From Stomorhina lunata (Eukaryota > Arthropoda > Insecta > Diptera > Rhiniidae), in the NCBI GenBank assembly GCA_933228675.1, contig OW121743.1, positions 54,748,903 through 54,812,902 of the forward strand: DNA of 64,000 bases. The letters are read 5' to 3'. Every line of letters begins with the position of its first letter. Position 1 is the first letter of the stretch. Below the pieces are notes generated by a model that was given only the letters and a program-made list of their open reading frames with translations, was not told the DNA's origin and searched no databases. The position numbers and the translations under genes were made by a program. Positions 23,401 through 64,000 of the stretch are shown in pieces.

Positions 23401-23730
23401 TATGTCTTAGTCTATGTCTTAGTCTATGTCTTAGTCTATGTCTTAGTCTATGTCTTAGTCTATGTCTTAGTCTATGTCTTAGTCTATGTCTTAGTCTATG
23501 TCTTAGTCTATGTCTTAGTCTATGTCTTAGTCTATGTCTTAGTCTATGTCTTAGTCTATGTCTTAGTCTATGTCTTAGTCTATGTCTTAGTCTATGTCTT
23601 AGTCTATGTCTTAGTCTATGTCTTAGTCTATGTCTTAGTCTATGTCTTAGTCTATGTCTTAGTCTATGTCTAAGTCTATGTCTTAGTCTATGTCTTAGTC
23701 TACATCTTAGTATATGTCTTAGTCTATATC
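20465..23730. repeat. 12-bp satellite, about 272 tandem copies
   Basis: Continuous TATGTCTTAGTC repeats over 3.27 kb. The register never changes, so I see no insertion or deletion in about 270 units, only scattered substitutions (TTCGTC, TATGAC, AGTATATG, TTACTC, TGTTTT). A variant combination (AGTATATG, two units later TTACTC, then TATGAC) occurs near 22151 and again near 22703, 552 bp or 46 units apart, and in shortened form near 22595, as expected from unequal exchange or segmental amplification. The true length may be misassembled. Confidence 0.97.
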
Positions 23731-28853: not shown

Positions 28854-29790
28854 TCAAGTACCGTTTTCAAGCCTGATTGGAGACTCATATGCAATTGGAT
28901 GCTGCATGTTTTTAACAGCCCTCCATAGATTGAAATTTTTTTCCTTAGAGGAATCTAAGTTTTTTAAGTACTTATCAAGAGATTTTTGTTCATTGATCCT
29001 CAATGCGGAATGCAGCTTTCTTTGACATTGCTTTAAACGGCTTTTTAAGGCAGGACATCGACATTCTTGCCACCGTCTTCTTAGCCTTCTCTTTTCATTT
29101 ATTAGACTTTGAATATCGTCTGGAATGCTCCGGCTACCCTTTTTCTTCGGTTTAAAGATTGGAGTTGCTATACAGGCTGCATTAGTGAGAATTTCTGAAA
29201 AAGTGTTAATTGCAGATTCGATGTCAGTTGGATTCCTGAGAGAAATATTGAACGGGAGGTGGTAACTCACATACATTTTATATTTTAACCAGTTTGTATT
29301 TCTGTTTGGATAAAAATGTCTTTCTTCTTGAACTTCATTGGGACTGCCATAAAAAGATATAATAGATGGCGAATGATCGGATGATAAGTCTAGCGATGAG
29401 CAAACGGATAAGTTGGATCTTTTCATACCTCTTGTAATGGCAAAATCTATCAAATCGGGTATCTTGTTTAAGTCAGAGGGCCAATACGTTGGGTGACCCC
29501 CTGATGCGGCGTTCAACCTGTGTGAAAAGATAGCACCCAATAGCTGTCTATCCCTAGGTGTAATAAGACGTGAGCCCCAAAACGTGTGCTTCGCATTAAA
29601 ATCACCAGCCACTATGAATTTAGAGCCAAGCGTATCAAAAAAATCAAGGAATTGATCTTTTTTTAATATTATATCTTGGCGGACAATATATAGAAGACAA
29701 AGTCATTTTGTATTCCAAAAGTTTAACAGATGTTGCCTGAATATATTCCTTTTCGTAATGAGGCAATGGAAAATGCCTTATTTTATTATG
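28854..29790 (-). pseudogene. LINE endonuclease domain fragment and linker
   Basis: The first stretch (about 29790-29665) reads IRHFPLPHYEKEYIQATSV then SSIYCPPRYNIKK, matching the middle of Jockey-type AP endonucleases that nick target DNA for target-primed reverse transcription. A 1-nt change in an A7 run near 29665 shifts the frame. The second stretch (28857-29612 and a little upstream) begins FIVAGDFNAKHTFWGS and includes SSDHSPSIISF, the C-terminal catalytic motifs GDFN and SDH. It continues through a basic linker rich in Arg, Lys and Cys (RRLRRRWQECRCP) and ends at an in-frame TGA (28854-28856) where the family would have a sense codon, probably Trp. The N-terminal catalytic residues are missing, so it cannot be active. 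Confidence 0.85.
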
Positions 29791-32852: not shown

Positions 32853-34389
32853 TGAAGACCTTATTTTGAAAGTGGATTAAGTCTATTATTTTTTAAATTG
32901 AGATATAAAGGGTTTTGCGTTTTAATGTTTTTAAAAATATAGGTGACCAATTTTAGTAAATTAAATCCTAGGTTTTGATCAGAACCTATCAAATTTTTTC
33001 TTTCATAAAAATAAATTAATAAAAACCATTTGGAAACGCGTTTTTTAGTGGGTTGAATGGACTTATACCACTTTCAAAACAAACATTTTAAAATAATCAT
33101 TATTTGAATTGAAAAATTTATGTATTCATGTTTATGTATTGAAAAATTTACTGTATTCAAAACAAATAAAATTTAAATTTTTGGTTTTGTATGAAAAAAT
33201 TTTTACTTTTAAATTGAAAAATGTATAGGACTTTTTCCACTTCCAAAACAAATAAAATGAAAAATTTTGTTTCAAAAAATTTTGCCAAATATTTTTCATA
33301 ACAAATTTCCTATAAAAAGTGAATTTTTGAAAAATTTCCTATAAAAAGTAAATTTTTGAAAAATTTCCTATAAAAAGTAAATTTTTGAAAAATTTCCTAT
33401 AAAAAGTAAATTTTTTAAAAATTCCTATAAGAAGTAACTTCTTGAAAAATTTCCTTTAAAAAGTAAATTTTTGAAAAATTTCCTATAAAAAGTAAATTTT
33501 TGAAAAATTTCCTATAAAAAGTAAATTTTTGAAAAATTTCCTATAAAAAGTAAATTTTTTAAAAATTCCTTTAAGAAGTAACTTCTTGAAAAATTTCCTT
33601 TAAAAAGTAAATTTTTGAAAAATTTCCTATAAAAAGTAAATTTTTGAAAAATTTCCTATAAAAAGTAAATTTTTGAAAAATTTCCTATAAAAAGTAAATT
33701 TTCGAAAAATTTCCTATAAAAAGTAAATTTTAGAAAAATTTCCTATAAAAAGTAAATTTTCGAAAAATTTCCTATAAAAAGTAAATTTTCGAAAAATTTC
33801 CTATAAAAAGTAAATTTTCGAAAAATTTCCAATTAAGAGTAAATTTAAAAAAAAATAAAAATCATTCCGTCAAATTTTTAGTATTTTTTTTTTCAATTGT
33901 ATGAAATAGCAAATATTTTTAGATATCAATACAAACAATATTAGACCAGTACTATTATGAAAATAAGTTTTTACTTTTACTCTGTTCGAGTTAATATTTA
34001 TTTTAAAATTTAAAAAGAATTGGACTTTACCCACTTTCAAAAAAAATATTTGAATTATTATTTTGTTTGAAGAAACAGTTTTTTTGTAATTAAAAATGTA
34101 CTGGACTTTATCCACTTTCAAAACAAATAAATTTGAAATTTTTATTTTGTTTGAATATTTTTTTTCTTTTAAAATGAAAAATATATGGGACTTAAACCAC
34201 TTTCAAAATAAAAATTTGTATCAAATCGCTAACTACAAAATGTTTGACTGTCAAGATTGTGGTAAGTTTTGTAAATTTAAAATTAATTATTTTTCGCATA
34301 GTAAAATCCACAATTGCAGAACCTTTTCCCATCATTAACTCAATTTTTTTGGAATGTGGACTTATTCCATTTTCAAAATAAAGTCTTTA
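32853..34389 (+). mobile_element. TIR element with internal 29-bp array, copy A
   Basis: The left end ATGAAGACCTTATTTTGAAA followed by GTGGATTAAGTC is inverted at the right end (GGACTTATTCCATTTTCAAA then ATAAAGTCTTTA), a terminal repeat of about 33 bp. Diverged copies of the terminal motif (GGACTT...CCACTTTCAAAA) recur inside at about 33058, 33222, 34022, 34102 and 34187. A 29-bp tandem array fills the centre. The copy at 40789-42572 has the same ends on the opposite strand. Long modular ends plus internal tandem repeats recall foldback-type or satellite-carrying non-autonomous elements; no coding frame. Confidence 0.8.
33290..33840 (+). repeat. 29-bp array inside TIR element A
   Basis: About 19 units of GAAAAATTTCCTATAAAAAG plus TAAATTTTT. 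A variant pair (TTTTTTAAAAATTCC with GAAGTAACTTCTTG) occurs near 33413 and near 33558, about 145 bp or five units apart, so a higher-order repeat exists. Right-hand units shift to TAAATTTTCG. Confidence 0.93.
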
Positions 34390-37439: not shown

Positions 37440-38950
37440 AAACAAGTAAGAGTGTTATACATATTCGGCTATGCCGAATCTTGTATACCCACCATCAAGT
37501 TGTACGAGAGTGCAGCTAATTCAAAATGTTGACCAAATGTGGTATTGTTGGTAATATATTTGGACTAAATTCGGTTGCAGTGGTATAGTTCCTATAGTTC
37601 AACATTTAAAAGTATCTAAGTGGTTTCCCAAGTATTTACCTTGGACAAAATGCTGTTCCATAACCGAATATAGTTTTACATTAATAAACTGTTTCGAGGG
37701 CCATAAACATGTTGATAGCAACACGGCAGGTTCATATATTTTGTTAGGAATTCCTAATGCATCTACCGTGTATAAAGTCTGGACCTAACATTGATTGATA
37801 GCTAATTTCATAGATGCAATCTACCTCCAAATCTTTTTGATTGTAGATATAAAAAGGGGATGTTATATATTTCAGAACTATAGCCAAATGTTGACCGATT
37901 GTTACAAAATTTTATATACTGGCTGGTATTAATATAAAGTTTATTTGTGCAAAATTTAGTGGCCATAGCTGACATAGTTTATAATTTAATAGCTTTTAAC
38001 TGGCGTTTGTGGCATTTTAGTGGTTACCGGGAGTGGTTTTTATACGAAAGCTATGGTCAAAAATAGACCGATTCCTATAAAATTTGACATATTGACTGAA
38101 AGTTGCATATTACTTTTCTCTTTTGTAAATTTAGTAGTCATAGATTTTACAATTTTATTCAATTTATTAGCATAAATGCGATTCCCGGGGCAGGGTTATA
38201 TGGGAGCTCTAACTAAATGTGAACCGATTTTATCCATTTTCAGCGCACAATTTCTATAACATATCGCAAATACTTATCCTAAATTTTGTCTCTCTAGCTC
38301 TTGTAGTTAAGGAGCTATCGCACTTTTCTCTAACGTAAAGATGAACATAAACCCCCTTTTCTCTTTGTATTTTTGTGTTTCCGTAAGTTTTTTATATGGG
38401 AGCTATGGTCAAATGGTCACTGATTATGACAAAATTTTGCACACTGGTTGGCATTGACATAAGACCTCCTCGTGCTAATGGTTATATCTGTTGTAGTTTT
38501 AGATTTATTGGCATTTAAGTGTATTTTGGGTGAAATTTTGGCTGTTTCCCTAAGTTTTTTGTATGGGAGCTATGACTAAATGTGAACCGATTTTGCAGAA
38601 ATTTTATATGCCGCCTAGGGCTTATGCAAAACTTGTATATACCAAATTTTGTCATCATAGCTATTATAGTTTGTTATTTATTAGCAAATAAGCGATTAGC
38701 GTAGGCGAGGTTATACGGGAGCTATGGTGAAATGTTAACCGATTTTGCCCAATTTCAATACCAAAATTTTCTCAGATGTGAAGAATGTTTTAACAAAGTT
38801 TCAATGAGCTAGCTCCTTTCGTTTAGGCTTTATAGTGATTTCAGCAGACGGACAGACGGACAGACAGACAGATTTGCAAGATTTTTAAATGGTTTTAATT
38901 TAATCTTCTTTGAGAGTGCTATTATTATCTAAACTACTATGTATAACAAT
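37440..38950 (+). mobile_element. mini-me-like element with internal about 170-bp repeats
   Basis: Starts AAACAAGTAAGAGTG, followed by the hairpin TATTCGGCTATGCCGAAT and GTATACCCACC. Near the 3' side is a GACGGACAGACGGACAGACA tract, the (GTCY)n complement. The body contains about six diverged repeats marked by GGGAGCTATGGTCAAATG and ACCGATTNTG at about 37896, 38067, 38221, 38418, 38584 and 38735 (spacing 151-197 bp). No transposase frame. Resemblance to dipteran mini-me/DINE-type elements is from memory of the (GTCY)n feature. Confidence 0.65.
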
Positions 38951-39400: not shown

Positions 39401-39478
39401 ACAAGTTTCCCTTAAGTCTTAAATTAAATTTCGTGATTTTAGTAGATTTACATCATTTCCACAACAAATTTTCGTTAA

Positions 39479-39712
39479 AGTCCATCCACTCTTTGAGGTA
39501 CCTGGGGGGTAACTCCGTATCTCGATTCGAAAGAAAATGTTTTCGAAACCCAATGCTTTAAGCATTGAAGTTCATCCATTCTTTGAGGTACCTGGAGGGT
39601 TACTCCGTATCTCGATTCGAAAGAAAATGTTTTCGAAACCCAATGCTTTAAACATATAAATTCAAAAAATTTTATTTTCTAATCGAAATACGGAGTAACC
39701 CCCCTGCTTTGC
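39479..39712. repeat. 90-bp direct duplication with an inverted partial copy
   Basis: TTTGAGGTACCTGG...TAACTCCGTATCTCGATTCG...GAAACCCAATGCTTTAA occurs at 39479-39565 and again at 39569-39655 (period 90 bp). AATCGAAATACGGAGTAACC at about 39683-39702 is the inverted complement of part of the unit, so the second copy and this piece could form a stem. Confidence 0.8.
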
Positions 39713-40788: not shown

Positions 40789-42572
40789 ATGAAGATTTTA
40801 TTTTGAAAGTGGAATAAGTCCACATTCCAAAAAAATTAAGTTAATGATGGGTAAAGGTTCTGCAATTTATAGGAAATTTTTCGAAAATTTACTTTTTATA
40901 GGAAATTTTTCGAAGATTTACTTTTTATAGGAAATTTTTCAAAAATTTACTTTATATAGGAAATTTTTCGTAAATTTACTTTTTATAGGAAATTTTTCAA
41001 AAATTTACTTTTTATAGGAAATTTTTCAAAAATTTACTTTTTATGGGAAATTTTTCAAAAATTTACTTTTTATAGGAAATTTTTCAAAAATTTACTTTTT
41101 ATAGGAAATTTTTCAAAAATTTACTTTTTATAGGAAATTTTTCAAAAATTTACTTTTTATAGGAAATTTTTCGAAAATTTACTTTTTATAGGAAATTTTT
41201 CAAAAATTTACATTTTATAGGAAATTTTTCAAAAATTTACTTTTTATAGGAAATTTACTTTTTTTATAGGAAATTTTTCAAAAATTTACTTTTTTTATAG
41301 GAAAATTTTCAAAAATTTACTTTTTTTATAGGAAAATTTTCAAAAATTTACTTTTTTTATAGGAAAATTTTTCAAAAATTTACTTTTTATAGGAAATTTT
41401 TCAAAAATTTACTCTTTTTATAGGAAATTTTTCAAAAATTTACTCTTTTTATAGGAAATTTTTCAAAAATTTACTTTTTATAGGAAATTTTTCAAAAATT
41501 TACTTTTTATAGGAAATTTTTCAAAAATTTACTTTTTATAGGAAAATTTTCAAAAACTTACTTTTTATAGCAAATTTTTCAAAAATTTACTTTTTATAGG
41601 AATATTTTCAAAAATTTACTTTTTTTATAGGAAATTTTTCAAAAATTTACTTTTTATAGGAAATTTTTCAAAAATTTGCTTTTTATAGGAAATTTTTCAA
41701 AAATTTACTTTTTATAGGAAATTTTTCAAAAATTTACTTTTTATAGGAAATTTTCCAAAAATTTACTTTTTATAGGAAATTTTCCAAAAATTTACTTTTT
41801 ATAGGAAATTTTCCAAAAATTTACTTTTTATAGGAAATTTTTCAAAAATTTACTTTTTATAGGAAATTTTTCAAAAATTTACTTTTAATAGGTAATTTTT
41901 TAAAAATTTACTTTTTATAGGAAATTTTTCAAAAATTTACTTTTTATAGGAAATTTTTGAAAAAGTTACTTTTTATAGGAAATTTTTCAAAAATTTATTT
42001 TTTATAGGAAATTTTTCAAAAATTTCCTTTTTATAGGAAATTTTTCAAAAATTTACTTTTTTTTATAGGAAATTTTTCAAAAATTTACTTTTTTTATAGG
42101 AAATTTTTCAAAAATTTACTTTTTTTATAGGAAAATTTTCAAAAATTTACTTTTTTATAGGAAAATTTTCAAAAATTTACTTTTTTTATAGGAAATTTTT
42201 AAAAAATTTACTTTTTATAGGAAATTTTTCAAAAATTTACTTTTTATAGAAAATTTTTCAAAAATTTACTTTTTATAGGAAATTTTTCAAAAATTTACTT
42301 TTTATAGGAAATTTCTCAAAAATTTACTTTTTATAGGAAATTTTTCAAAAATTTACTTTTTATAGGAAATTTCTCAAAAATTTACTTTTTATAGGAAATT
42401 TTTCAAAAATTTACTTTTTATAGGAAATTTTTCAAAAATTTTTTTTTATAGGAAATTTTTCAAAAATTTACTTTTTTATAGGAAATTTTTCAAAAATTTA
42501 CTTTTTATAGAAACCTTTTATATCTCAATTTAAAAAAATGGACTTAATCCCCTTTCAAAATAAGGTTTTCAT
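40789..42572 (-). mobile_element. TIR element with internal 29-bp array, copy B (array-expanded)
   Basis: Opposite-strand relative of 32853-34389. The left end ATGAAGATTTTATTTTGAAA with GTGGAATAAGTCCA and the right end TGGACTTAATCCCCTTTCAA with ATAAGGTTTTCAT are inverted. Sequences next to the ends match copy A: TTAATGATGGGTAAAGGTTC near 40842 is the complement of 34316-34336, and ATCTCAATTTAAAAA near 42522 is the complement of 32896-32910. In B the array fills nearly the whole interior. Confidence 0.85.
40866..42515 (-). repeat. 29-bp array inside TIR element B
   Basis: About 57 units of AAAAATTTACTTTTTATAGG and AAATTTTTC, the reverse complement of the array in copy A. Most variation is in the length of T and A runs; units with TTTTTTTATAGG cluster at 41245-41360 and 42055-42200, suggesting block amplification. 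Confidence 0.95.
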
Positions 42573-43520: not shown

Positions 43521-43714
43521 TTTGTTATTATAGAATTTTTTCTATAAAAATTTTTTTTGTCAAAAATTTTTCCATAGAAAATTTTAGTATCAAAAATTTT
43601 TATATAGAAAATTTTTTTGTCAAAAATTTTTATATAGAAAATTTTTTTGTCAAAAAGTTTGACAGAAAAATATTTTTACCGAAAATTTTTCTATTGAAAA
43701 ATATTTTACTAAAA

Positions 43715-43998
43715 AGTTTTAATGCAGTGTATTCCACTAAAATACCAATTTATTACAATTATTTAATATTGCAATAAATAGTTTTTTGATAAAACCAAAA
43801 AATGTTGGTGGGGAAACCTTTCCTCGACGCGTTTCGATGGTTGGTTAGGCCATCTCTTCAGGAGGATTATACCTAATTCTAGATAGAGCCAAAATCACAT
43901 ATTATATCTTATTTGTGCGACAAAATAAATACGAATTATTATGTCTAACAAAACAATAAACATAAAGCGAAGATTATCATCTGAACAGAAACACACAA
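43715..43998 (-). mobile_element. hammerhead-bearing non-autonomous unit 1
   Basis: A unit of about 285 bp in the satellite array. On the minus strand: about 120 bp of leader homologous to the next copy, the hammerhead (43866-43821), then about 110 bp containing CCCCACC, TTTTTTGGTTTTATCAAAAA and TTTATTGCAATATTAAATAA. The distal part recurs at 51785-51905 and 52075-52195. No reverse transcriptase is present, so any mobility would need another element. A Penelope-like or retrozyme origin is inferred from the ribozyme. Confidence 0.6.
43821..43866 (-). ncRNA. hammerhead ribozyme motif 1 (type I, short stem III)
   Basis: Minus strand, 5' to 3': stem I TCCTC (43866-43862); core CTGAAGA (43861-43855) fitting CUGANGA; stem II GATGG (43854-43850), loop CCTAACCAA, CCATC (43840-43836); GAAA (43835-43832); minimal stem III CGCG; cleavage triplet GUC (43828-43826); stem I partner GAGGA (43825-43821). 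All invariant core residues are present and both stems pair without mismatch. Predicted cut between 43826 and 43825. Such very short stem III ribozymes are known from Penelope-like elements and retrozymes and may act as dimers. Confidence 0.8.
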
Positions 43999-44352
43999 AC
44001 ATTTTTATCGAAAATTTTCACCAAAAAATTTTTTTATTATAAGATTTTTAAAAGATTTTATCAAAATTCTTTTTTCAAAAATTTTTCTATAGATTTTTTT
44101 GTTAAAAATTTTTCTATAGATTTTTTTTTTTTATCAAAAATATTTCTATAGAAAATTTTTTTGTCAAAAATTTTTCTATAGAAAATTTTTTTGTCAAAAA
44201 TTTTTCTAAAAATAACAAAATAGTCGGGATGTAAATATTATTCAAAAAGAAGTGTATTTGCATTTGATCCCAAATCTGTTACATTTATTTATTAATGTAA
44301 CAGACCAATTTATTGATAAAAAGCCAAAAAAATGTTTGCGGAGAAACCAAAT

Positions 44353-44398
44353 TCCTCGACGCGTTTCGATGGTTGGTTAAGCCATCTATTCAGGAGGA
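44353..44398 (-). ncRNA. hammerhead motif 2, core-mutated
   Basis: Same layout as motif 1 on the minus strand: TCCTC (44398-44394), core CTGAATA (44393-44387), GATGG/CCATC, GAAA, CGCGTC, GAGGA (44357-44353). The core reads CTGAATA rather than CUGANGA, so the conserved G (G8 in hammerhead numbering, a catalytic residue) is T. It is expected to be inactive or strongly impaired. Confidence 0.7.
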
Positions 44399-44761
44399 TT
44401 ATCCCCAATTTAGACAGATCGAAAACCTCGCATTATTACTAAATTTACAAACATAACTATTAAGAATTATGTTCATAAACCAAAAGTAAAAGCGTAGATT
44501 ATCGACTGAACAAAAACAAACATTTTTCAGTTTTCATCTACCTTCACTTCCCACATTCTTGCTGTAGCCGTCGGCTACTATATGCAGAATGCTGTGAAGA
44601 AGGGGGGGTAAGATGAAGGTAGATGAAAACTGAAAAATGTTTGTTTTTGTTCAGTCGATAATCTACGCTTTTACTTTTGGTTTATGAACATAATTCTTAA
44701 TAGTTATGTTTGTAAATTTAGTAATAATGCGAGGTTTTCGATCTGTCTAAATTGGGGATAA

Positions 44762-44807
44762 TCCTCCTGAAGAGATGGCTTAACCAACCATCGAAACGCG
44801 TCGAGGA
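44762..44807 (+). ncRNA. hammerhead ribozyme motif 3, intact
   Basis: Plus strand: TCCTC (44762-44766), CTGAAGA (44767-44773), stem II GATGG (44774-44778), loop CTTAACCAA, CCATC (44788-44792), GAAA (44793-44796), CGCG, GUC (44800-44802), GAGGA (44803-44807). Predicted cut between 44802 and 44803. It is the intact counterpart of motif 2 in the other palindrome arm. Confidence 0.8.
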
Positions 44808-47800
44808 ATTTGGTTTCTCCGCAAACATTTTTTGGCTTTTTATCAATAAATTGGTCTGTTACATTAATAAATAAATGTAACAGATTTGGGATCAAATGCA
44901 AAAAAAAATGTTTCTATACAAAATTTTTTTAGCAAAAATTTTGACAGAAAAATATTTTTATCGACAATTTTTCTATTGAAAAATATTTTTAAAAAGTTTT
45001 ACTGTAGTGTAATGCACTAAAAATCCCAATTTATTACAATATTTTTATCGAAAATTTTCACAAAAAAAATATTTTTTATGATTTTTTATAGAAAATAATT
45101 TTTATCGAAAAATTTTTATATCCATGATTTTTGTATAGAAAACTTTTTTGTCAAAAATTTTTCTATAGAAATTTTTATTGTTAAAAATTTTTCAACAGAA
45201 AATGTTTGTATCAAAAATTTTTATATAGAAAATTTTTTTAACGAAAATTTTCATATCAAAAATTTTAGAAATTTTTTCATCAAAAATTTTTCTATATAAA
45301 ATTTTTTTGTCAAAATTTATTCTATAGAAAATTTTTTTGTCAAAAATTTTTCTATAGAAAATTTTGCTAACAAAAATTTTGACAGAAAAATATTTTTATT
45401 GAAAATTTTTCTATTGAAAAATATTTTTATAGAAAATTTTTACAAAAAAAATATTTTTATTGAAAGATTTTCTATAGAAAATAATTTTTATCGAAAAATG
45501 TTTATATCAAAGATTTTTGTATAGAAATTTTTTTTATCAAAAATTTTTCTATAGAAAATTTTATATAAAAAATTTTCCTATAGAAATTTTTTGTCAAAAA
45601 TTTCTCTATTGAAAATTTTTTTGTCAAAAATTCTTCTATAGAAAATTTTTTGTTAAAAATTTTTCTATATAATTTTTTTGTCAAAAATTTTTCTATAGAA
45701 AATTTTTTTGTGAAAAATTTTTCTATAGAACATTTTTATCAAAAATTTTTCTATAGAAAATTTTTTTGTGAAAAATTTTTCTATAGAACATTTTTATCAA
45801 AAATTTTTCTATAGAAAATTTTTTATCAAAAATTTTTCTATAAAAAATTTTTTTGTCAAAATTTTTCCATAGAAAATTTTGTATCAATAATTTTTATATA
45901 GAAAATTTTTTTAACAAAAATTTTGACAGAAAAATATTTTTATCGAAAATTTTTCTATTGAAAAATATTTTTATCGAAATTTTTTGCAAAAAAATATTTT
46001 ATTGAAAGATTTTTTATAGAAAATAATTTTTATCGAAAAATTTTTATATCAGAGTTTTTTAGTATAAATTTTTTTTGATCAAAAAATTTTCTATAGAAAA
46101 TTTTTATCAAAAAATTGTCAATAGAAAATTTTTATCAAATATTATTCTATAGAAAATTATCAAAAATTTTTATATAGAAAATTTTTGTATCAAAAATTTT
46201 CATATAGAAAATTTTCTTAACGAAATTTTTATATCAAAGATTTTAGAAAGTTTTTTATCAAAATTTTTTCTATAGAAAATTTTTTATTAAAAATTTTTCT
46301 ATAGAAATTTTTTTTATCAAAAATTTTTCTATAGAAATTTTTTTTATCAAAAATTTTTTCATAGAAAATTTTTGTATCAAAAAATATTTTATTGAAAGGT
46401 TTTTTATAGAAAATAATTTTTATCGAAAAATTTGTATGTCAATACTATACTAATTTTTTTTTATCAAAAATTGTCTATAGAAAATTTTTATCAAAAAATT
46501 GTCTATAGAAAATTTTTATCAAAAAATTGTCTATAGAAAATTTTTATCAAAAAATTGTCTATAGAAAATTTTTATCAAAAATTATTTTATAGAAAATTTT
46601 TTGGTCAATAATTTTTCCATAGAAAATTTTTGTATCAAAAATTTTTTTTTTATCAAAAATTTTTATATAAAAAATTTTTGTATCAAAAATTTTCATATCA
46701 AAGATTTTAGAGAATTTTTTATCAAGATTTTTTCTATAGAAAATTTTTATGTTAAATATTTTTCTATAGAAATTTTTTTTATCAAAAATTTTTTCATAGA
46801 AAATTTTCTGTATCAAAAATTTTAATACAGACAATTTTTTTAACAAAAACTTAAAAAAAAATATTTTTATTGAAAATTTTTCTATTTTTTTGTATCGAAA
46901 ATTTTCACAAAAAAAATATTTTTACTAAAAAATTTTTTAAAGGAAATAATTTTTTTGTCAAAAATTTTTTTTCAAAAAACTTTTCTGTAGAAAAATGCGA
47001 TCTTTTGGAATTGGAAAATTGTTTTTATCAACAATTTTTTGTCAAAAATGTTTCTATAGCAAGTTTTTTTATCAAACATTTTTTTTAAAAAAAATTTTCT
47101 TCGAAAAATATTTTTGACGAAAATTTTCACAAAAAATATTTTTATTGAAAGATTTTTTATTGAAAATAATGTCTATAGAACATTTTTCTAGAGATTTTCG
47201 TATAGACATCTTTTTTCAAAAATTTTCTGTAGAAAATTTTTCTATCAATAGTTTTTCTATAGAAAATTGTCTATAGAAAATTTTTATCAAAAATTATTCT
47301 ATAGAAAATTTTTTGGTCAATTATTTTTCCATAGAAAATTTTTGTATCAAAAATTTTTTTTATCAAAAATTTTTATCTAAAAAATTTTTGTATCAAAAAT
47401 TGTCATATAGAAAATTTTCTTAACGAAATTTTCATATCAAAGATTTTAGAAAATTTTTTATCAAGATTTTTTCTATAGAAAATTTTTATGTTAAAAATTT
47501 TTCTATAGAAATTTTTTTTGTCAAAAATTTTTTCATAGAACATTTTCTGTATCAAAAATTTTAATATAGACAATTTTTTTAACAAAAACTTAAAAAAAAA
47601 ATATTTTTATTGAAAATTTTTCTATTTTTTTGTATCGAAAATTTTCACAAAAAAAATATTTTTACTAAAATATTTTTTAAAGGAAATAATTTTTTTGTCA
47701 AAATTTTTTTTTCCAAAAACTTTTGTATAGAAAAAATGCGATCTTTTGGAATTGGAAAATTGTTTTTGTCAAAAATTTTCACAAAAACATATTTTTATTG

Positions 47801-48770
47801 AAAGATTTTTTATTGAAAATAATGTCTATAGAAAATTTTTCTAGAGATTTTTGTATAGAAATTTTTTTCACAAATTTTTCTATGGGAAATTTGTTTAACA
47901 ATAATTTTTCTATAGAAAATTTTTGTATCAATAATTTTTCTATAGAAAATTTTTTTATCAAAAATTTTTCTATAGAAAATTTTTATATCAATAATTTTTC
48001 TATAGAAAATTTTTTTTCAAAAATTTTTCTATAGAAAATTTTTAATAAAAAAATTTTGTAGAGAAACATTTCTGATAACAAAAATTTCTATTGAAAAATG
48101 TTTGATAAAAAAATTTTCTATAGAAAAATTTTTAGTAAAGAATTTTCTATATAGAAATTTTTAATTCAAAAATTTTCTGTATAAAAATTTTTTATATTTT
48201 TTTGATCAAAAATTTTTTATCAAAAATTTTTCTATAGAAAATTTTTTTTCAAAAATTTTTCTATAGAAAATTTTTTTTTCAAAAATTTTTCTATAGAAAA
48301 TTTTTTTATCAAAAATTTAGAAAATAGAATATAGAAAAAAAGAAAAATTTTTGATAAAAAATTTTTGATCAAAAAAAATATAAAAAATTTTTATACAGAA
48401 AATTTTTGAATTAAAAATTTCTCTATAGAAAATTCTTTATTAAAAATTTTTTTATAGAAAATTTTTTTATCAAACATTTTTCAATAGAAATTTTTGTTAT
48501 CAGAAATGTTTCTCTACAAAATTTTTTTATTAAAAATTTTTCTATAGAAAATTAATTTATCAACAATTTTTCTATAGAAAATATTTTTATATTTTTTTTT
48601 TTTTATTGATAAATTTTTTTTATATTAAAATATTTATATCGAAAATTTTCACAAAAAATATTTTTAACGAAAGATTTTCTATGGAAAATAATTTTTATCG
48701 AAAAATTTTTCAGAGAGTAATATTTTTCTATAGAAAAATATTTGTATCTAAAAAATATTTACACAGAAAA

Positions 48771-49784
48771 ATCGAAAATTGTTTAATATTAGTATTTATT
48801 TGTATTTTAAAAAATATTCCCTTTTTGGTTACATTTATTTCCAAAAATGTTTAGAAAAATAATAGCGCCGTGGCAACAATGTTTGGGAGTATATTTCTTT
48901 TTTCTTTCGAACCAAATATTTTGTTGCTATTATATTTTCATTTTGTTTTCTGCATATTTTGTTTTTGTCTTTTCCTTAACAAAACCTCACCCATGGGCTT
49001 TGTTAACATCCAAATCTCAACCGAATGATTTTAATACTCATTTTCACGAGTTTCATTAATGAAGTTTACGAAAATTACAAAAAGTCTTCGGCTCCTGGTG
49101 GGATTTACTGTATATCTTCGGTTATAACTATCTTATAACTTTTGGTAGCCAAATTTTGAACTTTTTTTGACTTTAAATTATGTATTTATTTGACTTTCGC
49201 CAAACTAATTTTCAATTTGATATATAGAATTTTCTAGAAAGAAGATGCATTTTTAAGTACTTAAAGCTTTTTTAAATTATTAATAATACAATTTACTTAC
49301 AAAACTCCTTTTCTTTGTTTCTTTTCAGGTAAGAATAATTTGATTAAAAATATTTCGTAAGTTTAAAAAATTCATCAAAATCATTTTTAATTTGAAATTT
49401 TTAAAATAATTCCTTTAAATTAACAGAAGTCCTCTAAATTGACTTAAAATCTTAGATTTTTTTTTTTTTTTTTTTTGTAAAATTCATATAATTTTATTTG
49501 CCATAACAACTTATCTGCAATTTACCGAAAAAATAACATTATTTTCTTTTCTTAATATTCCTTTGGCAAATACGCAGCCAAAACCCATCAATTGTGGTTA
49601 AACACTTGAAGAAATCCTGGTTAAGAAATAAAAGAAACATTTGCCAAGTCGAGAAATAAAAAAAGTATAAACTGCAATGAAATAAAAAGTAAATCTTAGC
49701 TAAACACTTTCTTTAATAATATGTAAATATTACAATGAGTTTTATATGGAAATGAAGGGGAAAAACGCAATAAAATGTCAAATA
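48771..49784. other. AT-rich DNA without recognisable gene
   Basis: No gene supported. It includes a T16 run near 49459 and GGCTCCTGGTGGGATTTACTG near 49090, which looks like a fragment of a tRNA T-arm-like repeat but is too short to assign. Confidence 0.4.
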
Positions 49785-49962
49785 GGCAGACAGACAGATG
49801 GAAGGACAAATAGAAAGACGGATGGATGGAAGGACGGACAAATAGAAAGATGGACGGATGGAAGGACAGACAAATAGAAAGACGGACTGATGGAAGGACG
49901 GACAGATGAAAAGACGGATGAATAGAAAGACAGACGAATGGAAGGACGTCGGAAAAACATAC
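49785..49962. repeat. degenerate GACGGATGGAAG minisatellite
   Basis: Tetranucleotide-based repeats (GGAC, GGAT, GACA, AAAT) arranged as longer units such as GGAAGGACGGACAAATAGAA recurring at about 28-36 bp. Two overlapping minus-strand frames encode Ser-Ile-Arg-Pro repeats that merely read the minisatellite. It may derive from a GTCY tract. Confidence 0.85.
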
Positions 49963-50753
49963 TGACAGAAAGCCTTACCAGCAAACAACCCTATTTACAT
50001 TTAAATAATACAAAATAGAATAAACTGATTTTATTTTAAGAATTTTTTTGTAAAAAATCTTTTACTGACATTTGCAGAGTTTAGAGTAAATAAGCGAAAG
50101 TCTAACAAGGATTTAGATAGTCAGTCAGTCATTCAGAATTTAACCAGCAGCAAAATATAGAAGTAAATGAAAAATAAATATAAACTTTTAGATAAACAGA
50201 CAAACAAATGCAGTCAAGCATTTTTATTTTAAATAAAATAAAAAATATAGAAAATAAAATTTGTAATAATTTAAATATCAGACTTTTACTACTGTTTATG
50301 ACATGTATACGAGGTTTATTTGAAATTGATTAGAAAGTCCCAAGGGCATAGTTAAATTTTCTTAATACTTCTCGTTTTATTAAATTTCTTGAAATAATAT
50401 ATCATTATTAAAGGTATTAAATAATACTTTTGGGGTTGCTTAAATCTCTTAATCAATTTCCTTTTTTCAATTTCATTCAAAATTTATTTCAATTTTGAAA
50501 TGAGTTTTAGGGGTTTGAAAATTCATATTTTTGCTTTAAGCCCTTTTATTTAAAAATTAATATTCGTTTGAAATACTTCCTTTCCATTTCATTTCAGTTT
50601 CACTTTTTTTCGCTTTCAAATACAAAAGGACTATTATTCATATATCTTCTACTTATTTAATCTTTATTATCTTCTTGCATATTTTTGGGAGTTTCCGGTG
50701 AAGTGTTATACTCTAAAAGATTTGAATAAGGCAGGCACAATTTTTCAAGAGAA
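49963..50753. other. AT-rich DNA without recognisable gene
   Basis: No gene supported. ACCAGCAAACAACCC at about 49977 resembles the CCCAGCAAAC terminus seen elsewhere, but no partner end was found. Confidence 0.4.
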
Positions 50754-51384
50754 AAACAAGTAAGAAAGCGCTATAGTCGGTCAAGCCGACCATACGATAC
50801 CCTTCACCATTAAGGTCAAAGGTGATATTTTTCCTGTATAAAGACAAATAATTGCTAAATTTTGCCATCATACAAACATTTTCTCAAAACGTATATATTC
50901 AACCTGTTTCCGTCATTTGGACTTATATGAGAGCTAGGGTCAAATGTGGACCGATTATCTCGAAATTTGGTACAGTGATTTAAGTTTACATAAGCAGTAT
51001 CTATTTCAAATTTCATGAAAAAATATTGATATTTGTGGCCAATATAGCAATTCCGGGTAGTGGGACCTATGGGAGGTACCATAAATAATGGACCGATTTT
51101 GACCAATTTCAATAGCCATGGTCCCATTATCAAAAAAATTATCTGTGCCAAATTTCATTGAATTATCTTTAGAATTGTGACCTGTAGTTTGATTACAAGG
51201 TTTACATGGGGGTCCAGCCAGCCGGACGGACGGATGGACGGACGGACATCGCTAAATCGACTCAGAAAGTGATTCTAAGTCTATTGGTATACTAAAAGGT
51301 GGGTCTAAGACAAATATTTCTATGCGTTACAAACATCAGCACAAACTTATAATACCCTTTCCACCTATGGTGGTGAAGGGTATA
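50754..51384 (+). mobile_element. mini-me-like element, compact copy
   Basis: Starts AAACAAGTAAGAAAGCG with the hairpin ATAGTCGG, TCAA, GCCGACCAT and GATACCCTTCACC. Ends with a second hairpin, ACCCTTTCCACC, TATG, GGTGGTGAAGGGT. Between them lie diverged GACCGATTNTG repeats and a GGACGGACGGATGGACGGAC tract at about 51222-51247. At about 630 bp it is the shortest complete-looking member here. No coding frame. Confidence 0.7.
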
Positions 51385-51397
51385 GTTATTCGCACTA

Positions 51398-51530
51398 AAT
51401 TTATTGATAAAAGCCAAAAATGATTTGTGGGCACAACTAATTCCTCGACGTGTTTCGATGGTTGGTTAGGACATCATCATCAGGAGGAGTATTCCCCACA
51501 AACATTTATGGCTTTTATCGCTTATTCGTA
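51398..51530 (-). mobile_element. hammerhead-bearing unit 4 with extended stem I
   Basis: Lies 14 bp beyond the mini-me-like element. Sequence on the two sides of the ribozyme pairs far beyond the minimal stem I: GATAAAAGCC with GGCTTTTATC, and TTTGTGGG with CCCACAAA, so about 110 bp forms one long stem ending in the ribozyme. The downstream part (TTTTTGGCTTTTATCAATAA) is shared with the palindrome arms. Confidence 0.65.
51442..51490 (-). ncRNA. hammerhead ribozyme motif 4 (canonical CUGAUGA core)
   Basis: Minus strand: ACTCCTC (51490-51484), CTGATGA (51483-51477), an extra T, GATG ... CATC as stem II, GAAA (51456-51453), CACG, GUC (51449-51447), GAGGA (51446-51442). Core residues are all present. 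The unpaired T between core and stem II and the shorter stem II may weaken it. Predicted cut between 51447 and 51446. Confidence 0.7.
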
Positions 51531-51773
51531 AATATGATTCATATCCTTCAGTGGGGATTATTTACTGAATTTGTAACAGAATTGAATGACAGATTCGAAA
51601 TAACCGATAGTTCAACTAAAACCGATATATTCCTTAAAATTTTCTTCAAATTTCTAAATTTGATATTTTCTTAACTTTCAAATTTCAAATTAAGATATTT
51701 TTAAATCTTTTAAACTTCAAAATTTTAGATTTTTTTTTTAATTTTCTAATTTCAAAATAAAAAAAATAAAAAC

Positions 51774-51905
51774 TGAGGAAAAACTGAGGTTTGCCCACCA
51801 TAATTTTTTGGTTTTATCAAAAAACTATTTATTACAATAATAAATAATTGTAATAAAATGGGATCATAGTGCAATACACTACAGTAAAACTTTTTAATTA
51901 AATGT
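51774..51905 (+). mobile_element. hammerhead-unit fragment starting at GAGG, copy 1
   Basis: Matches the part of unit 1 downstream of its predicted cleavage position (GAGG ... GGTTT, CCCACC, TTTTTTGGTTTTATCAAAAA, CACTACAGTAAAACTTTTTA). The beginning carries a small insertion (GAGGAAAAACTGAGG). Confidence 0.55.
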
Positions 51906-52066
51906 TTGATGTCCCAAAATTTTTCAAAAAATTTCTAAATTTGATATTTTCTTAACTTTCAAATTTCAAATTAAGAGATTTTTAAATCTTTTAGATTTCA
52001 AAATTTCAAAATTTTTTTTTTTAAATTTTGAAAATTTTCTAATTTCAAAATAAAAAAATAAAAACT

Positions 52067-52195
52067 GAGGAAAGGTTTGCCCACCAATTTTTTGGTTTTA
52101 TCAAAAAACTATTTATTACAATAATAAATAATTGCAATAAAATGGGATCTTAGTGTAATACACTTCAGTAAAACTTTTTAATTTAATGTTTGATG
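52067..52195 (+). mobile_element. hammerhead-unit fragment starting at GAGG, copy 2
   Basis: GAGGAAAGGTTTGCCCACC aligns with the 19 nt directly following the predicted cut of hammerhead 1 (one mismatch), and homology stops at the G after the cut. Shares its surroundings with copy 1 through the 298-bp duplication, so only one insertion need have happened. Confidence 0.6.
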
Positions 52196-53656
52196 TCCCA
52201 AAATTTTTGATAAACCTTTTTAAACATTTTCAATTTTTTAAAGAAAATTTTTAAAAATTAAGACAATTCCTCAAAATCTTTAAAATTTGAGTGTTTTTTA
52301 TTTAAATTCTTTAAATTTGAGTTTTTCAAATTTAAATATTTGAGATTTTCTTTAAATTTGAAATTTTCATTTGAAAAGTTTTTAATATCGAAAATTTTAC
52401 AATATTTTCAAATTAAGATTTTCTTTAGAAAAATTTTTAAAATTAGAAATTAAAATTTTGTTTTTTAATTTTTCAAATCAACAAATTCCAAATTTCTTTA
52501 AGAAAATTTAAAAATTCCAAATTAAAATTTTATTTTCTTCAGAAAAAATTTTAAAATTAGAAATTTAAATTTTGTTTTTAATTTTTCAAATTAACAAATT
52601 CCAAATTTCTTTAAGAAAATTTAAAATTTCCAAATTAAAATTTTATTTACTAAATATTTAAAATTTCCAAATTTTTTTTTAAGAAAATTTGTCATCACTT
52701 TACAATTTTTTTCAAATTCACAGATGCAAGACTTTTTTTGTTTAAATTCTTTAAAATTGAAATTTTTATTTGTAAATTTTAGGTTTTCTTTAAAAAATCT
52801 TTTAAATTTAAAAATTCCCAATTTCAATATTTTTGGCTTAAATTTCTCAATACCAAATTTAAGATTTTCCTAAAAACATTTTTTAGTTTTCCAAACTTTT
52901 TTTTTCATTAAAACTTTTTGAAATTTTTAATTTGTTGAAGAACATTTTGAAATTTCTTCACCATTTTTTTTAAATTAAAAAGTTTTACGGTTTTTTTAAA
53001 CTCTTTAAATTTTAAATTAAAAAATTTTTAAATTTCAAAATTTGAAATTTTCTTAGAAAATTTAAAAATATGACACTTTTCAAAATTTTTGTTTTTTTTT
53101 TAAATTCTAAATTAAAAAAAATTTTACAAAATTCCAACTGAGATTTTTTTTTCAATTCATCAAAAATTTTTAAATTTCTTTAAAAAAAAACTTTTTAAAC
53201 TAAAAAATTTTAGATTTTCATTTGAAAACTTTTAAATTTCCAAAACTAAGATTTTCTTTAGAAATTTTTTTTTTAACTTAAGATTTTTTGATTTTTTTTT
53301 TAAATTTGAGGTTCTTTAGAGATTTTGAAAAATTTCTTAAATATCTTGTATAAAATTTTAACATTCAAAATGTTTTTGTTTTCCAAATTTAAGATTTTAG
53401 TTAAAAAATTTTAAAATTTTAAATTTTTGTAGAAAAATTTTAAACTTTTAAGATGTCAAAATTTTTTCAAACTTTTTTTTTTGAAAATTTGTAGCATTTC
53501 TCAAATTTTTTAAATTAAAGATTCTTGTTTTTAAATTTCAAATTTGAGATTTTTCAGAAAAATTTTCAAATATTTAAATTTTAATTAAAATTTTAAACAT
53601 TAAAATTGTTTTTGTTTTAATTTTGAAAAATTGAGATTTTCGTTAAAAAATGTTTA

Positions 53657-56905: not shown

Positions 56906-59483
56906 TTATACCCTTCACCAATAGGTGAAAGGGTATTATAAGTTTGTGATTCCGTTTGTAATTTTTTTATTAGTGATCGTAGACCCCATAAAAATTATAC
57001 CGATCGACTCAGAATCGGGAGGAGAATCGATTAAGCGATGTCCGTCTGTCTGTCTGTCTGTCCGTCCGTCTGTCTGTCTGTCTGTTGAAATCAAGTTTCT
57101 GAAGCCCCTGGAGGATGTTCTTACATAAATTATATATCAGATTTTAGAAAATTCTCCCGCAATGAACGCTATTAAATTTCATTAAAATCGGTTTATAAAC
57201 ACCGAAAATATCGAAAAAATACCAAAAATTAGACGAAAATTTTAAAATTTTTGATTGAAACACACTTTTAAATAACAAGAGCAAAAAGATACTCCTGGTG
57301 TACATGTGATAATACTTTATATATCAGATTGTAGGAAATAGTTTCCCAAAGCACTCTGTAAAATTTTATCAAAATCGGTTCATAAACAACTGAGATATCG
57401 CCAAAACACTGAATTTGATGTATCGCAAATTGCCCAAAGTTCGCATTAGAGAATGTTTGTTGAAAAAATGAAATGCAGAAATAGGAAAAACCATCCTCCT
57501 TTAGCACGGACCTACATAAATTTTATATCAGATTTTAGGAAATTCCCCCGCCAAGCACGTTAATAAATTTTATCAAAAGCGGTCCATAAACAATTGAGAT
57601 ATCGCAATAACACTACATTTGATGTACAGCAAATTGCCCAAAGTACGTGTCTAAGAAATTTTGTTTACATTTCGTAAGTATTGTTTCAGCGATATCTTAG
57701 GTGTTTATGGACCGATTGTGATGAAATTTGACATCGTTCTTTGTGTGAGGATTTTCTAAAATCTATACTCCACAAATCTGATTACGAATACCATTCAAAC
57801 TGTACCGATCAACTTTGAATCGGCAGGAAAATCGATTTCGCGACCTCACTCCGTCCGTCCGTCTGTTTGTCTGTCTGTTTGTTTGTCCGTCCGTCCGCCC
57901 GTCTGTTTTTTTTGTCCGTCCGTCTATCTGTCTGTAATTTTTTCTGTTGTAGTCAAGTTTTTGGAGTTCCTGTTTTGTCGATATCTCAGGTGTTTATTTT
58001 GATGAATTTTAACAGCGTCCTTCGCAGGAGATTACCTAAATCCTGATGCATTCGGTAATTTGTGGTAGATATAATTTAGCGTGTAAGCGATGGTGTTTTG
58101 ATCGACAATCATAAAATTCAGGGTGGCCCAATATCCTAAAATTTTGTGTAAAATCCAGGAGCTCCACAAATCTGATTTTAGCAGACAGACACTCTGCATT
58201 AATCTTAATTTTGTGTCTGACTTTTGAACATTATGATAACATTTGAGAATGTATTATATATCAAATTATAGGTAATCTTCCTAGGAAGTACAAAAATGCA
58301 GCTAACTACATGATATCCGTTCAAAACCTACATATGTATGTAAGTATCTCATATATCAACGAAAATTTAAATTTTTTAATTGCAATTGGGAGAAATCCGT
58401 TCACGTTTGACAATTGATCCCTTATAACTTCGCCTAAGATACGATGATGACATTTAGTATAAAGACGTTGTACAATATTGATATTCAGGGCGATAGCGCC
58501 TAAAATAAACTTTCTAGAGGGACAATATTTGACAAAATTATTTCTGATCTCTTGAAAAGTTCGATATTGAAAATGGGCGAGCTCTATTCACATTTAGTGA
58601 AATCTCCCATATAACCCCGACCGGGAATCGATTTAATGCTGATAAATTAAATCACATTAAAATTGCACAAGGAACTAGAGTAAAACTTTCCAAACATCCA
58701 TCGGACAGATCGAAAGAACAATACATCCCAAATATTATTGATGAAGTGTTCATTTTAATTAATTAACTAACTTCAGATAAATAAGTAAATCTTTAATAAC
58801 TTTTCCGACAAAGCTGATATCCATCCATTCAAAAGCTATATATTTCACGTATGTATCTAAAACTAAGAGTGTATACCATATAATTTTATGGCTTATCATT
58901 GTTAAAGCTTTGACCTACATCAGTCCGCTAACTTCAGAGTTTTACATAACTAATCAAGAACTTTTACTAGTTTGATAATTCGTACGAATTAAAGTGCACA
59001 ACCCTCACTGGGCACTGTGTTTTTGGGTTGCATGGCAGAATACTTAATCTTCATCAAATCGATGTGCTTTTGCAAATCTAAGGGCATCTACATGTTAAAG
59101 CATCTTTTCTGCATGGTTTATCTGGTCTATCGAACTTTATTAAATGTTCGTAAAATATGTGTCTATTTTATTTCGAAGCTACTGGCTGGCTTAAATATAC
59201 ATTCTCTACTTGTAGTCTAGTAATCATTATCTTTCACAAAGGGACCACTTAAAGCTTCCCTAGACATCAGCCACGTGCCCAACCTAACCTTTGGGTGCAT
59301 AACTATTCTAGATGATGACGCCACCGAAAAGCTTTTCTTTCCGACTCTTAATTTTAAAGACTCTTTGCATATAATACTAGTATAACCAAATTTTGCTTGG
59401 AATTACATTAAGTACTTTTGCAACACCATTGGTGAAGGGTATCCAAGATTCGGCAAAGCCGAATATACCACTCTTACTTGTTT
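56906..59483 (-). mobile_element. mini-me-like element, long copy (2.6 kb)
   Basis: Read on the minus strand it starts AAACAAGTAAGAGTGG (59483), hairpin TATTCGGCTTTGCCGAATC, GATACCCTTCACC, and ends with ACCCTTTCACC, TATT, GGTGAAGGGTATAA at 56906. It has two GTCY tracts (57040-57083 and 57853-57935, complement of the reading strand). Three internal repeats of about 195 bp are marked by TATATCAGATT at about 57131, 57322 and 57525. An inverted partner begins at 62391. A 67-codon open frame in both copies is not supported as coding. Confidence 0.75.
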
Positions 59484-62390: not shown

Positions 62391-64000
62391 AAACAAGTAA
62401 AAGTGGTATATTCGGCTTTGCCGAATCTTGGATACCCTTCACCAATGGTGTTCCAAAAGTAAAGTACAAAATCGTAAGAGTATATTGTTAATTATATAGT
62501 TTCTGATTACTGACTTAGTTGAGCCCCACACAAATGCTTGATATGTATATTAATTTTCTTTTGTTCATACTAAATGTAATTCCTAGCAATATTAAGCTAT
62601 GTCGGAAAACGAAAAGCTTTTCGGTGGCGTCATCATCTAGAATAGTTATGCACCCAAAGGTTAGGTTGGGCAGGTGGCTGATGTCTGGGGAAGCTTCACT
62701 TGGGTTCTAAAGTGGTCCCTTTGTGAAAGATAATGATTACTAGACTACAAGTAGAGAATGCATATTTAAGCCAGCCAGTAGCTTCGAAATAAAATAGACA
62801 CATATTTTACGAACATTTAATAAAGTTCGATAGACCAGATAAACCATGCAGAAAAGATGCTTCAAAATGTAGATGCCCTTACATTTGCAATAGCATATCG
62901 ATTTGATGAAGTTTAAGTATTCTGGCATGCAACCCAAAAACACAGTGCCCAGTGAGGGTTGTGCACTTTAATTCGTACGAATTATCCAACTAGTAAAAGT
63001 TCTTGATTAGTTATGTAAAACTCTGAAGTTAGCGGACTGATTTAGGTCAAAGCTTTAACAATGATTGTCAATGTATACAAGCCTTAAAATTATAGGGTAT
63101 ACACTCTTAGTTTTAGATACATACGTGAAATATATAGCTTTTGAATGGATGGTTATCAGCTTTGTCGGAAAAGTTTACTTATTAATTTGAAGTTAGTTAA
63201 TTAATTAAAATGAACACTTCATCAATAATATTTGGGATGTATAGTTCTTTCGATCTGTCAGATGGATGTTTGGAAAGTTTTGCTCTAGTTCTTTGTGCAA
63301 TTTTAATGTGATTTAATTTATCAGCATTAAATCGATTCCCGGTCGGGTTTATATGGGAGATTTCACTAAATGTGAATAGAGCTCGCCCATTTTCAATATC
63401 GAACTTTTCAAGAGATCAGAAATACTTTTGTCAAATGTTGTCCCTCTAGAAAGTTTATTTTAGGCGCTATTGTCCTGAATATCAATATTGTACATCGTAT
63501 CTATTATAATTTGTCATTTATTAGCTACTAAGAGATTGCCTTAGGCGAAGTTATACGGGATCAATTGTCAAACGTGAACGGATTTCTCCCAATTGCAATT
63601 AAAAAATTTAAATTTTTGTTGATATGTGAGATACTTACATACATATGTAGGTTTTGAACGGATAGCATTTTTGTACTTCCTAGGAAGATTACCTATAATT
63701 TGATAAATATATAATACATTCTCAAATGTTATCATAATGTTCAAAAGTCAGACACAAAATTAAGATAAATGCAGTGTGTCTGTCTGCTAAAACCAGATTT
63801 GTGGAGCTCCTGAATTGTCCCACCCTGAATTTCAACATTGTCGATCAAAACACCATCGCTTAACGCTAAATTATATCTACCACAAATTACAGAATGCATC
63901 AGGATTTAGATAATCCCCTGCGAAGGACGCTATTAAACTTCATCAAAATAAACATCTTAGATATCGACAAAACAGGAGCTCCAAAAACTTGACTACAACA
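62391..64000 (+). mobile_element. mini-me-like element, inverted partner, cut by window end
   Basis: Starts AAACAAGTAAAAGTGG with the hairpin TATTCGGCTTTGCCGAATC and stays collinear, inverted, with 59483 down to 57948 at the window edge (TTGACTACAACA against TGTTGTAGTCAA). In the 204 bp of the shared open frame I count 8 differences (about 4 percent). Small indels separate the copies elsewhere. The 3' end lies outside the window. Confidence 0.85.

Follow-up and report, generated by a model that had tools for sequence, protein, structure and literature searches.

What kind of repeat carries the hammerhead-like motifs that recur in an AT-rich stretch of the genome of the fly Stomorhina lunata, and by what route did it spread? 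The stretch analysed here, called the window below, comprises 64,000 nucleotides of contig OW121743.1 (assembly GCA_933228675.1, positions 54,748,903 to 54,812,902 of the forward strand), and it holds one repeat family with four homologous hammerhead motifs, c1 to c4 (Table 1). The motif is likely to be a ribozyme. With less assurance, we favour the reading that the family is a short, non-coding, multi-copy mobile repeat with a minimal type I hammerhead, moved as a non-autonomous retro-element, for which the Penelope-associated or the retrozyme kind would fit.

Hammerhead motifs of the family

In each copy the elements follow one another in the order TCCTC, CTGANGA-like box, stem II, GAAA, C-NN-GTC and GAGGA. 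The original prediction, made from the letters of the sequence, had named this order and the four places, and both stand except that c4 begins at 51488 and not at 51490. It had also described a single copy as mutated and the core positions as those invariant in hammerheads. Under the hammerhead numbering and its set of invariant positions, the type I core test (CUGANGA ... GAAA ... UH) is passed by c1 and c3 and failed by c2, in which G8 is changed to T, while in c4 the bases are misspaced. Two copies are thus defective, the faults of c4 being an extra T between its CTGATGA box and stem II and the break of the last stem II pair (G to T). Judged from these changes, c2 is probably inactive and c4 is probably inactive or weak. 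C3 and G8 are named as hammerhead core bases in PMC11167929.

The predicted complementarity of stems I and II holds for stem I in all four copies and for stem II in three, c4 being the copy in which it is incomplete. Stem III amounts to 2 bp in every copy and is closed by two bases, which agrees with the proposed type I topology with almost no stem III. Over the four copies, standard pairs occupy 47 of the 48 pair cells (97.9%), compared with 25-52% when the pairing is slid. In c1 to c3 (three of the four copies), stem III plus its loop reads as the self-complementary palindrome ACGCGT. By eye, a UUGGUU/AACCAA pairing between loop I and loop II could reach 6 bp in c2 and c3 and 4 bp in c1, and it has one mismatch in c4; a conserved loop I-loop II pseudoknot was dropped as a candidate because this pairing is not maintained across the copies.

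Because all four motifs are homologous and c2 and c3 belong to one inverted duplication, they represent one family at about three loci and not four independent ribozymes. Beyond the original prediction, the analysis adds the damage to c4, the recognition of c2 and c3 as arms of one inverted repeat, and copies that lack the ribozyme.

Table 1. Hammerhead motifs, repeat units and adjoining arrays, numbered from the first base of the window
Feature	Position	Strand	Description
c1	43866-43821	-	46 nt; minimal type I hammerhead, core intact; predicted cut after C17 at 43826, between GUC and GAGGA
c2	44398-44353	-	Core reads CTGAATA (G8 to T)
c3	44762-44807	+	Minimal type I hammerhead, core intact; predicted cut after C17 at 44802
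c4	51488-51442	-	47 nt; one inserted base before stem II, one stem II pair lost; predicted cut after C17 at 51447
Repeat unit around c1	43720-44006	-	In common with c2/c3: some 130-140 nt before the ribozyme and some 100 nt after it; 71% flank identity to c3 in ungapped columns
Inverted-repeat arm holding c2	44258-44546	-	Near-perfect match to the c3 arm
Inverted-repeat arm holding c3	44614-44903	+	Head-to-head with the c2 arm
Hairpin downstream of c1	43750-43777	-	TTATTGCAAT..ATTGTAATAA on the sense strand
Corresponding hairpin downstream of c3	44856-44883	+	CTGTTACATT..AATGTAACAG, in c2 as well
30-bp AT-rich tandem array	43537-43721	.	Adjoins the downstream end of c1
30-bp AT-rich tandem array	44063-44208	.	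Between c2 and c1
Long 30-bp AT-rich tandem array	45082-48590	.	Beyond c3 and e
c4 element	51393-51521	-	129 bp between TTATTCG copies; inverted arms flank the ribozyme
TTATTCG, left copy	51386-51392	.	Flanks c4; candidate 7-bp target-site duplication
TTATTCG, right copy	51522-51528	.	Flanks c4; candidate 7-bp target-site duplication
d1	51787-51906	+	Without ribozyme; alignment to c1 begins six bases later than that of d2
d2	52067-52180	+	Without ribozyme; aligned locally, it matches c1 from the base that follows the predicted cut (GAGGAAAGG...)
e	44904-45044	-	3' part of the unit only; begins inside the hairpin

Conservation of the ribozyme relative to its flanks

The alignment of c1 to c3 has 293 columns, and the 27 gapped columns were excluded from the flank counts. 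Between c1 and c3, 45 of the 46 ribozyme columns are identical, compared with 157 of the 220 ungapped flank columns (71%; 89 of 127 upstream and 68 of 93 downstream), and the difference has a Fisher's exact p of 1.5e-5. The best 46-column segments, with 45 of 46 columns identical and start columns of 136-141, overlie the ribozyme, whose start column is 140. A hammerhead leaves N7, loop II and loop III free to vary, and three of the five differences within the motif among c1, c3 and c4 fall at these places; the other two are the c4 defects. This conservation centred on the ribozyme is our best evidence, and it is stronger than motif matching. Since 45 of the 46 bases were retained while the flanks of c1 and c3 diverged, the lineages appear to have been selected for the ribozyme at least until insertion.

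Units, arrays and copies without the ribozyme

The satellite setting given in the original prediction is borne out, with the units embedded in AT-rich tandem arrays and a GC fraction of 0.20-0.23 across 42-46 kb. Downstream of the ribozyme the order is a stretch ending TTTTATC, a hairpin, the 3' sequence and then the 30-bp AT-rich arrays, which adjoin c1, c2 and c3. The letters of the hairpin differ between c1 and c2/c3, with the pairing retained. One pair, c2 and c1, lies in direct order, with predicted cut sites 532 bp apart and a 30-bp array in between; compared with the repeated pseudo-long terminal repeats (pseudo-LTRs) that carry a minimal hammerhead in Penelope-like elements, the two are alike to only about 75%.

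The c2 and c3 arms (289-290 bp) make up a near-perfect inverted repeat in which 287 of the 291 alignment columns are identical, the differences being one substitution, one homopolymer base and two end bases. The spacer of 67 nt between them is partly self-paired in the fold, and a transcript spanning both arms is predicted to form one long hairpin. Given one substitution in 291 columns, the inverted repeat may be an assembly fold-back, and c2/c3 was counted as one locus. The sole substitution sits on the catalytic G8 of c2 (44388).

Three further copies, d1, d2 and e, lack the ribozyme and match the downstream part of c1, with GTGNAATNCACT present in the 3' sequence of all three as well as of c1. 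Over 127 columns d2 is 87.4% identical to c1. A short local duplication is found in d1 where its alignment to c1 begins, and d1 and d2 form one tandem duplication (51648-52208), so they are not independent and were counted once. On this count one of the two independent truncated copies starts at the cut site, namely d2 and not e. The AT-rich sequence preceding d2 contains an AAAC that may be left over from the ribozyme. The start of d2 hints that cleaved RNA was copied into DNA, and it is suggestive of this, not proof.

Some of these observations would also suit a ribozyme that is a fossil, the copies being old debris of a once active element and now spread only by satellite-type duplication and unequal exchange. 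Two of the four copies have damaged cores, both d1/d2 (in tandem) and c2/c3 (inverted) are local duplications, and the c1 and c3 flanks have diverged to 71% identity. We consider this possible but doubtful, for c1 and c3 have 45 of 46 ribozyme bases in common despite that divergence of the flanks; as regards the past, it is compatible with the retro-element reading.

The c4 element and its inverted arms

The segment 51393-51528 around c4 folds far better than its shuffles (z -5.71), and the TTATTCG pair on the two sides of c4 may be a target-site duplication, as a candidate only. The left copy begins 2 bases past the end (51384) of a different repeat, an end that recurs at 56907, and an alignment by eye also places the sequence that follows c4 against the TAGTGCAATACACT stretch of the family, which weakens the target-duplication reading. 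That neighbouring repeat (50754-51384), which we take to be a Helentron/DINE-type element by its look, ends in a TATACCC...GGGTATA hairpin and has partial relatives at 56907-57072, 38376-38463, 59430-59483 and 62391-62444.

Terminal inverted repeats shared by all copies were looked for in three units, within the window. Of 300 shuffles, none did as well as c4, in which the inverted arms around the ribozyme are clear; 3 did as well as c3, in which they are marginal, and 70 did as well as c1, in which they are absent. Since c1 is no better than shuffles, we do not regard such arms as common to the whole family.

It is unlikely, in our estimate, that a DNA transposon of the foldback, miniature inverted-repeat transposable element (MITE) or Helentron kind carries the ribozyme as a passenger, in which case the c4 arms and the c2/c3 palindrome would be transposon ends moved by a transposase or a Rep-helicase. 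Such an origin would suit the strong arms and the candidate 7-bp duplication at c4, the 289-290 bp arms of the c2/c3 inverted repeat, and the AT-rich minisatellite arrays adjoining the units, which are common in non-autonomous Helentrons of flies. On the other hand, the arm complementarity is uneven in the manner just described, the strongest conservation lies on the ribozyme, and the d2 match to c1 begins at the cut site.

Rfam scores, chance level and folding

No match was obtained when the whole 64-kb window was compared with Rfam at the gathering score, and no hammerhead was listed for a 16-kb stretch at E<=10. When segments of 91 bases were scored against all Rfam families, RF00163 matched all four copies (13.2-23.1 bits): c1 and c3 with 23.1 bits each (E 0.00063), c2 with 15.4 bits (E 0.23) and c4 with 13.2 bits (E 1.2). 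The original prediction had proposed this scoring, and its outcome is mixed, as a match is found for each segment but none reaches the 34-bit gathering score, which is a cut-off set by curators and not a biochemical definition. A model built from c1 to c4 scores those four at 79.8-89.9 bits, a match by construction, and it found no fifth copy in the window, where the next best score is 13.6 bits.

For the chance level, we used a strict type I descriptor (CTGANGA, GAAA, stem I of at least 5, stem II of at least 4 and stem III of at least 2). It matches the real window three times, at c1, at c3 and at an AT-rich place near 52542 that looks like chance, and it matches 6 of 300 dinucleotide-shuffled windows, with a mean of 0.023 per window. 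On motif matching by itself, with the four homologous copies counted as a single ancestral sequence, the probability of a chance match is about 2%.

That the motif is no ribozyme but a conserved hairpin (AACCAACC.UCGA..UCGAGG..GGUU) resembling a hammerhead by chance is highly improbable. In favour of it are the chance level just given for the descriptor and the presence of this hairpin in the minimum-energy structures of the c2 and c3 segments. Against it, the conserved block also spans TCCTCCTGAAGAGATGG, which is no part of the hairpin, and hammerhead stems I and II form in the minimum-energy structure of the 60-nt c1 segment, though not in that of the longer c1 segment.

Enzymes and relatives

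The original prediction held that no open reading frame (ORF) in this DNA supplies the enzymes, and our scan agrees with it. There are 15 stop-to-stop frames of at least 110 aa in the window; three were scanned with Pfam, all of them pieces of a long interspersed nuclear element (LINE), and the other 12 were judged by eye to be repeat or low-complexity sequence. No ORF for a Penelope-type reverse transcriptase (RT) plus GIY-YIG was seen among these 15 frames, shorter or broken pieces not having been searched for, and no frame of at least 110 aa overlaps the units c1 to c4. The LINE is broken (27427-29702, minus strand), with Exo_endo_phos_2 and RVT_1 pieces in three adjoining frames. Its pieces, at 27.4-29.7 kb, lie 14 kb from the nearest ribozyme.

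By coding content the repeat fails as a Penelope-like element, and we do not file it as one; a Penelope-like identity drawn from the ribozyme alone was dropped. The repeat is possibly the non-autonomous partner of a Penelope-like element, and the Penelope link is a guess.

A generic hammerhead pattern retrieved four IMG/VR stretches, which gave no Rfam match at gathering and at best 9.2 bits with the c1 to c4 model (default filters). The specific core and 3' motif had no match in viral contigs, a collection that is not one of fly genomes, so this absence says little. The same holds for prokaryote genome contigs, where no relatives were found and insect DNA is not expected. No publication on this repeat family was noticed in searches of open-licence papers.

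Proposed mechanism

We infer cleavage, dimer action, an RNA intermediate and the source of the enzymes as follows. A read-through transcript would fold each intact unit into a minimal hammerhead, with TCCTC/GAGGA as stem I, GATGG/CCATC as stem II and a 2-bp stem III, and the RNA would cut itself after GUC, the place at which minimal hammerheads of Penelope-like elements also cut. A monomer with a stem III of two pairs should be weak. Because ACGCGU is self-complementary, two ribozymes on the same or on separate transcripts would probably join in one 6-bp stem III and cleave as a dimer. The cut RNA, with its 5'-OH, would then be copied by reverse transcription and integrated by enzymes encoded elsewhere, most probably those of a Penelope-like element or another retrotransposon. 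The start of d2 and the candidate duplication at c4 would fit such RNA copying by retrotransposon enzymes. Activity may depend on a protein, as in the case of PAc, a Penelope-like element of a lizard (PMC11167929).

Several points weigh against the retro-element reading. No enzyme gene was seen, and the copies compared come from the window alone. All four Rfam scores lie under the RF00163 gathering threshold of 34 bits, and the core is sound in just two of the four copies. Among the four copies no pair covaries within the ribozyme, so the stems draw their support from constancy and not from compensatory change. In energy folding, other pairings are favoured for the segments of c2 and c3 and for longer ones of c1 and c3, and the folding energies of the c1 to c3 segments are no better than those of shuffles. 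The copy e does not begin at the cleavage site, and an AT-rich flank precedes d2, so its exact start could be chance. In other species, the Aedes RNA was inactive when tested as a monomer (PMC3088659), and the PAc ribozyme was not needed for insertion in vitro, where mutants still inserted (PMC11167929).

A more specific proposal for the retro-element can be made, although we regard it as rather unlikely. New insertions would have their 5' end set by the hammerhead, with reverse transcription acting on the 3' cleavage product, and the units, which lie at joints of the 30-bp AT-rich satellite arrays, may help to build these arrays. The 3' product is put forward as the copied form because the d2 match to c1 begins at the base after the cut. 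For comparison, a hepatitis delta virus (HDV)-like ribozyme trims R2-type elements. A genome with many copies, some of them starting at the cut site, would allow the role of the hammerhead to be tested by counting insertion starts. PMC7761336 describes as a mystery what minimal hammerheads do in Penelope-like elements and related repeats.

Comparison with known systems

Hammerhead-bearing repeats have been described in other animals, mosquitoes among them, and the family is a new example of these. According to PMC7761336, minimal type I hammerheads that may cut as dimers are found in Penelope-like elements, where they stand in tandem, and in dispersed animal repeats. The copies described here resemble these hammerheads in their type I order, in the near-absent stem III, in being dimer-prone, and in their non-coding dispersed or tandem placement. 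They differ from them as described there in that no RT or GIY-YIG ORF was seen, that stem I of c4 runs into a long outer stem, and that the copies are interleaved with 30-bp AT-rich arrays and are partly inverted.

With the animal non-LTR retrozymes, as far as PMC7229834 describes them, the family shares a non-coding, AT-rich (low GC) sequence and a type I hammerhead, the direct order of c2 and c1, and one candidate target duplication longer than 4 bp, that of c4. In contrast to those retrozymes, whose units measure 150-450 bp, the cut sites of c2 and c1 are separated by 532 bp with a satellite array inside this spacing; longer tandem arrays of units were not seen in the window, the other copies being dispersed or inverted.

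Interspersed repeats of Aedes aegypti have hammerheads with a palindromic stem III that were proposed to act as a dimer (PMC3088659), and they are like the present family, compared by description only, in being dipteran and interspersed and in having that palindrome. Dimer cleavage is also described for newt and viroid hammerheads (PMC6155905). Type III hammerheads with a long helix I occur in Drosophila pseudoobscura, Musca and other dipterans (PMC7936874). This class has in common with the present copies a short first part of stem I followed by an internal loop and an outer stem (c4), and an internal loop that may pair with loop II (6 bp in c3). The present hammerheads differ from this class in that they are type I with a closed and minimal stem III, and the loop pairing is not maintained in c1 (4 bp) or c4 (one mismatch).

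The W-elements of Schistosoma mansoni are likewise satellite-like repeats, some of them with functional hammerheads, but their units stand in regular tandem and both the host and the repeat are other ones (PMC8490949). A CUGANAA core mutant of the W-element hammerhead did not cleave, which may be compared with c2 (PMC8490949). A 2024 in vitro study detected no RNA-seq ends at the cut site, nor any effect of hammerhead mutants on insertion (PMC11167929).

Other repeats in the window

A long AT-rich hairpin at 53705-53850 matches the microRNA (miRNA) precursor models MIR9563 and MIR5649 well below their cut-offs. The miRNA matches of the 16-kb Rfam scan were dropped, all of them being below gathering scores and in AT-rich or palindromic DNA. 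A very uniform 12-bp satellite, TCTTAGTCTATG, occupies 20465-23727 in about 272 copies with 98% matches, and both of its strands contain long, repetitive open frames. One 29-bp repeat, AAATTTCCTATAAAAAGTAAATTTTTGAA with its reverse complement, forms two arrays of opposite orientation, at 33303-33846 and 40866-42510, 7 kb apart, and at 39478-39655 there is a 90-bp direct duplication of two copies with 94% matches.

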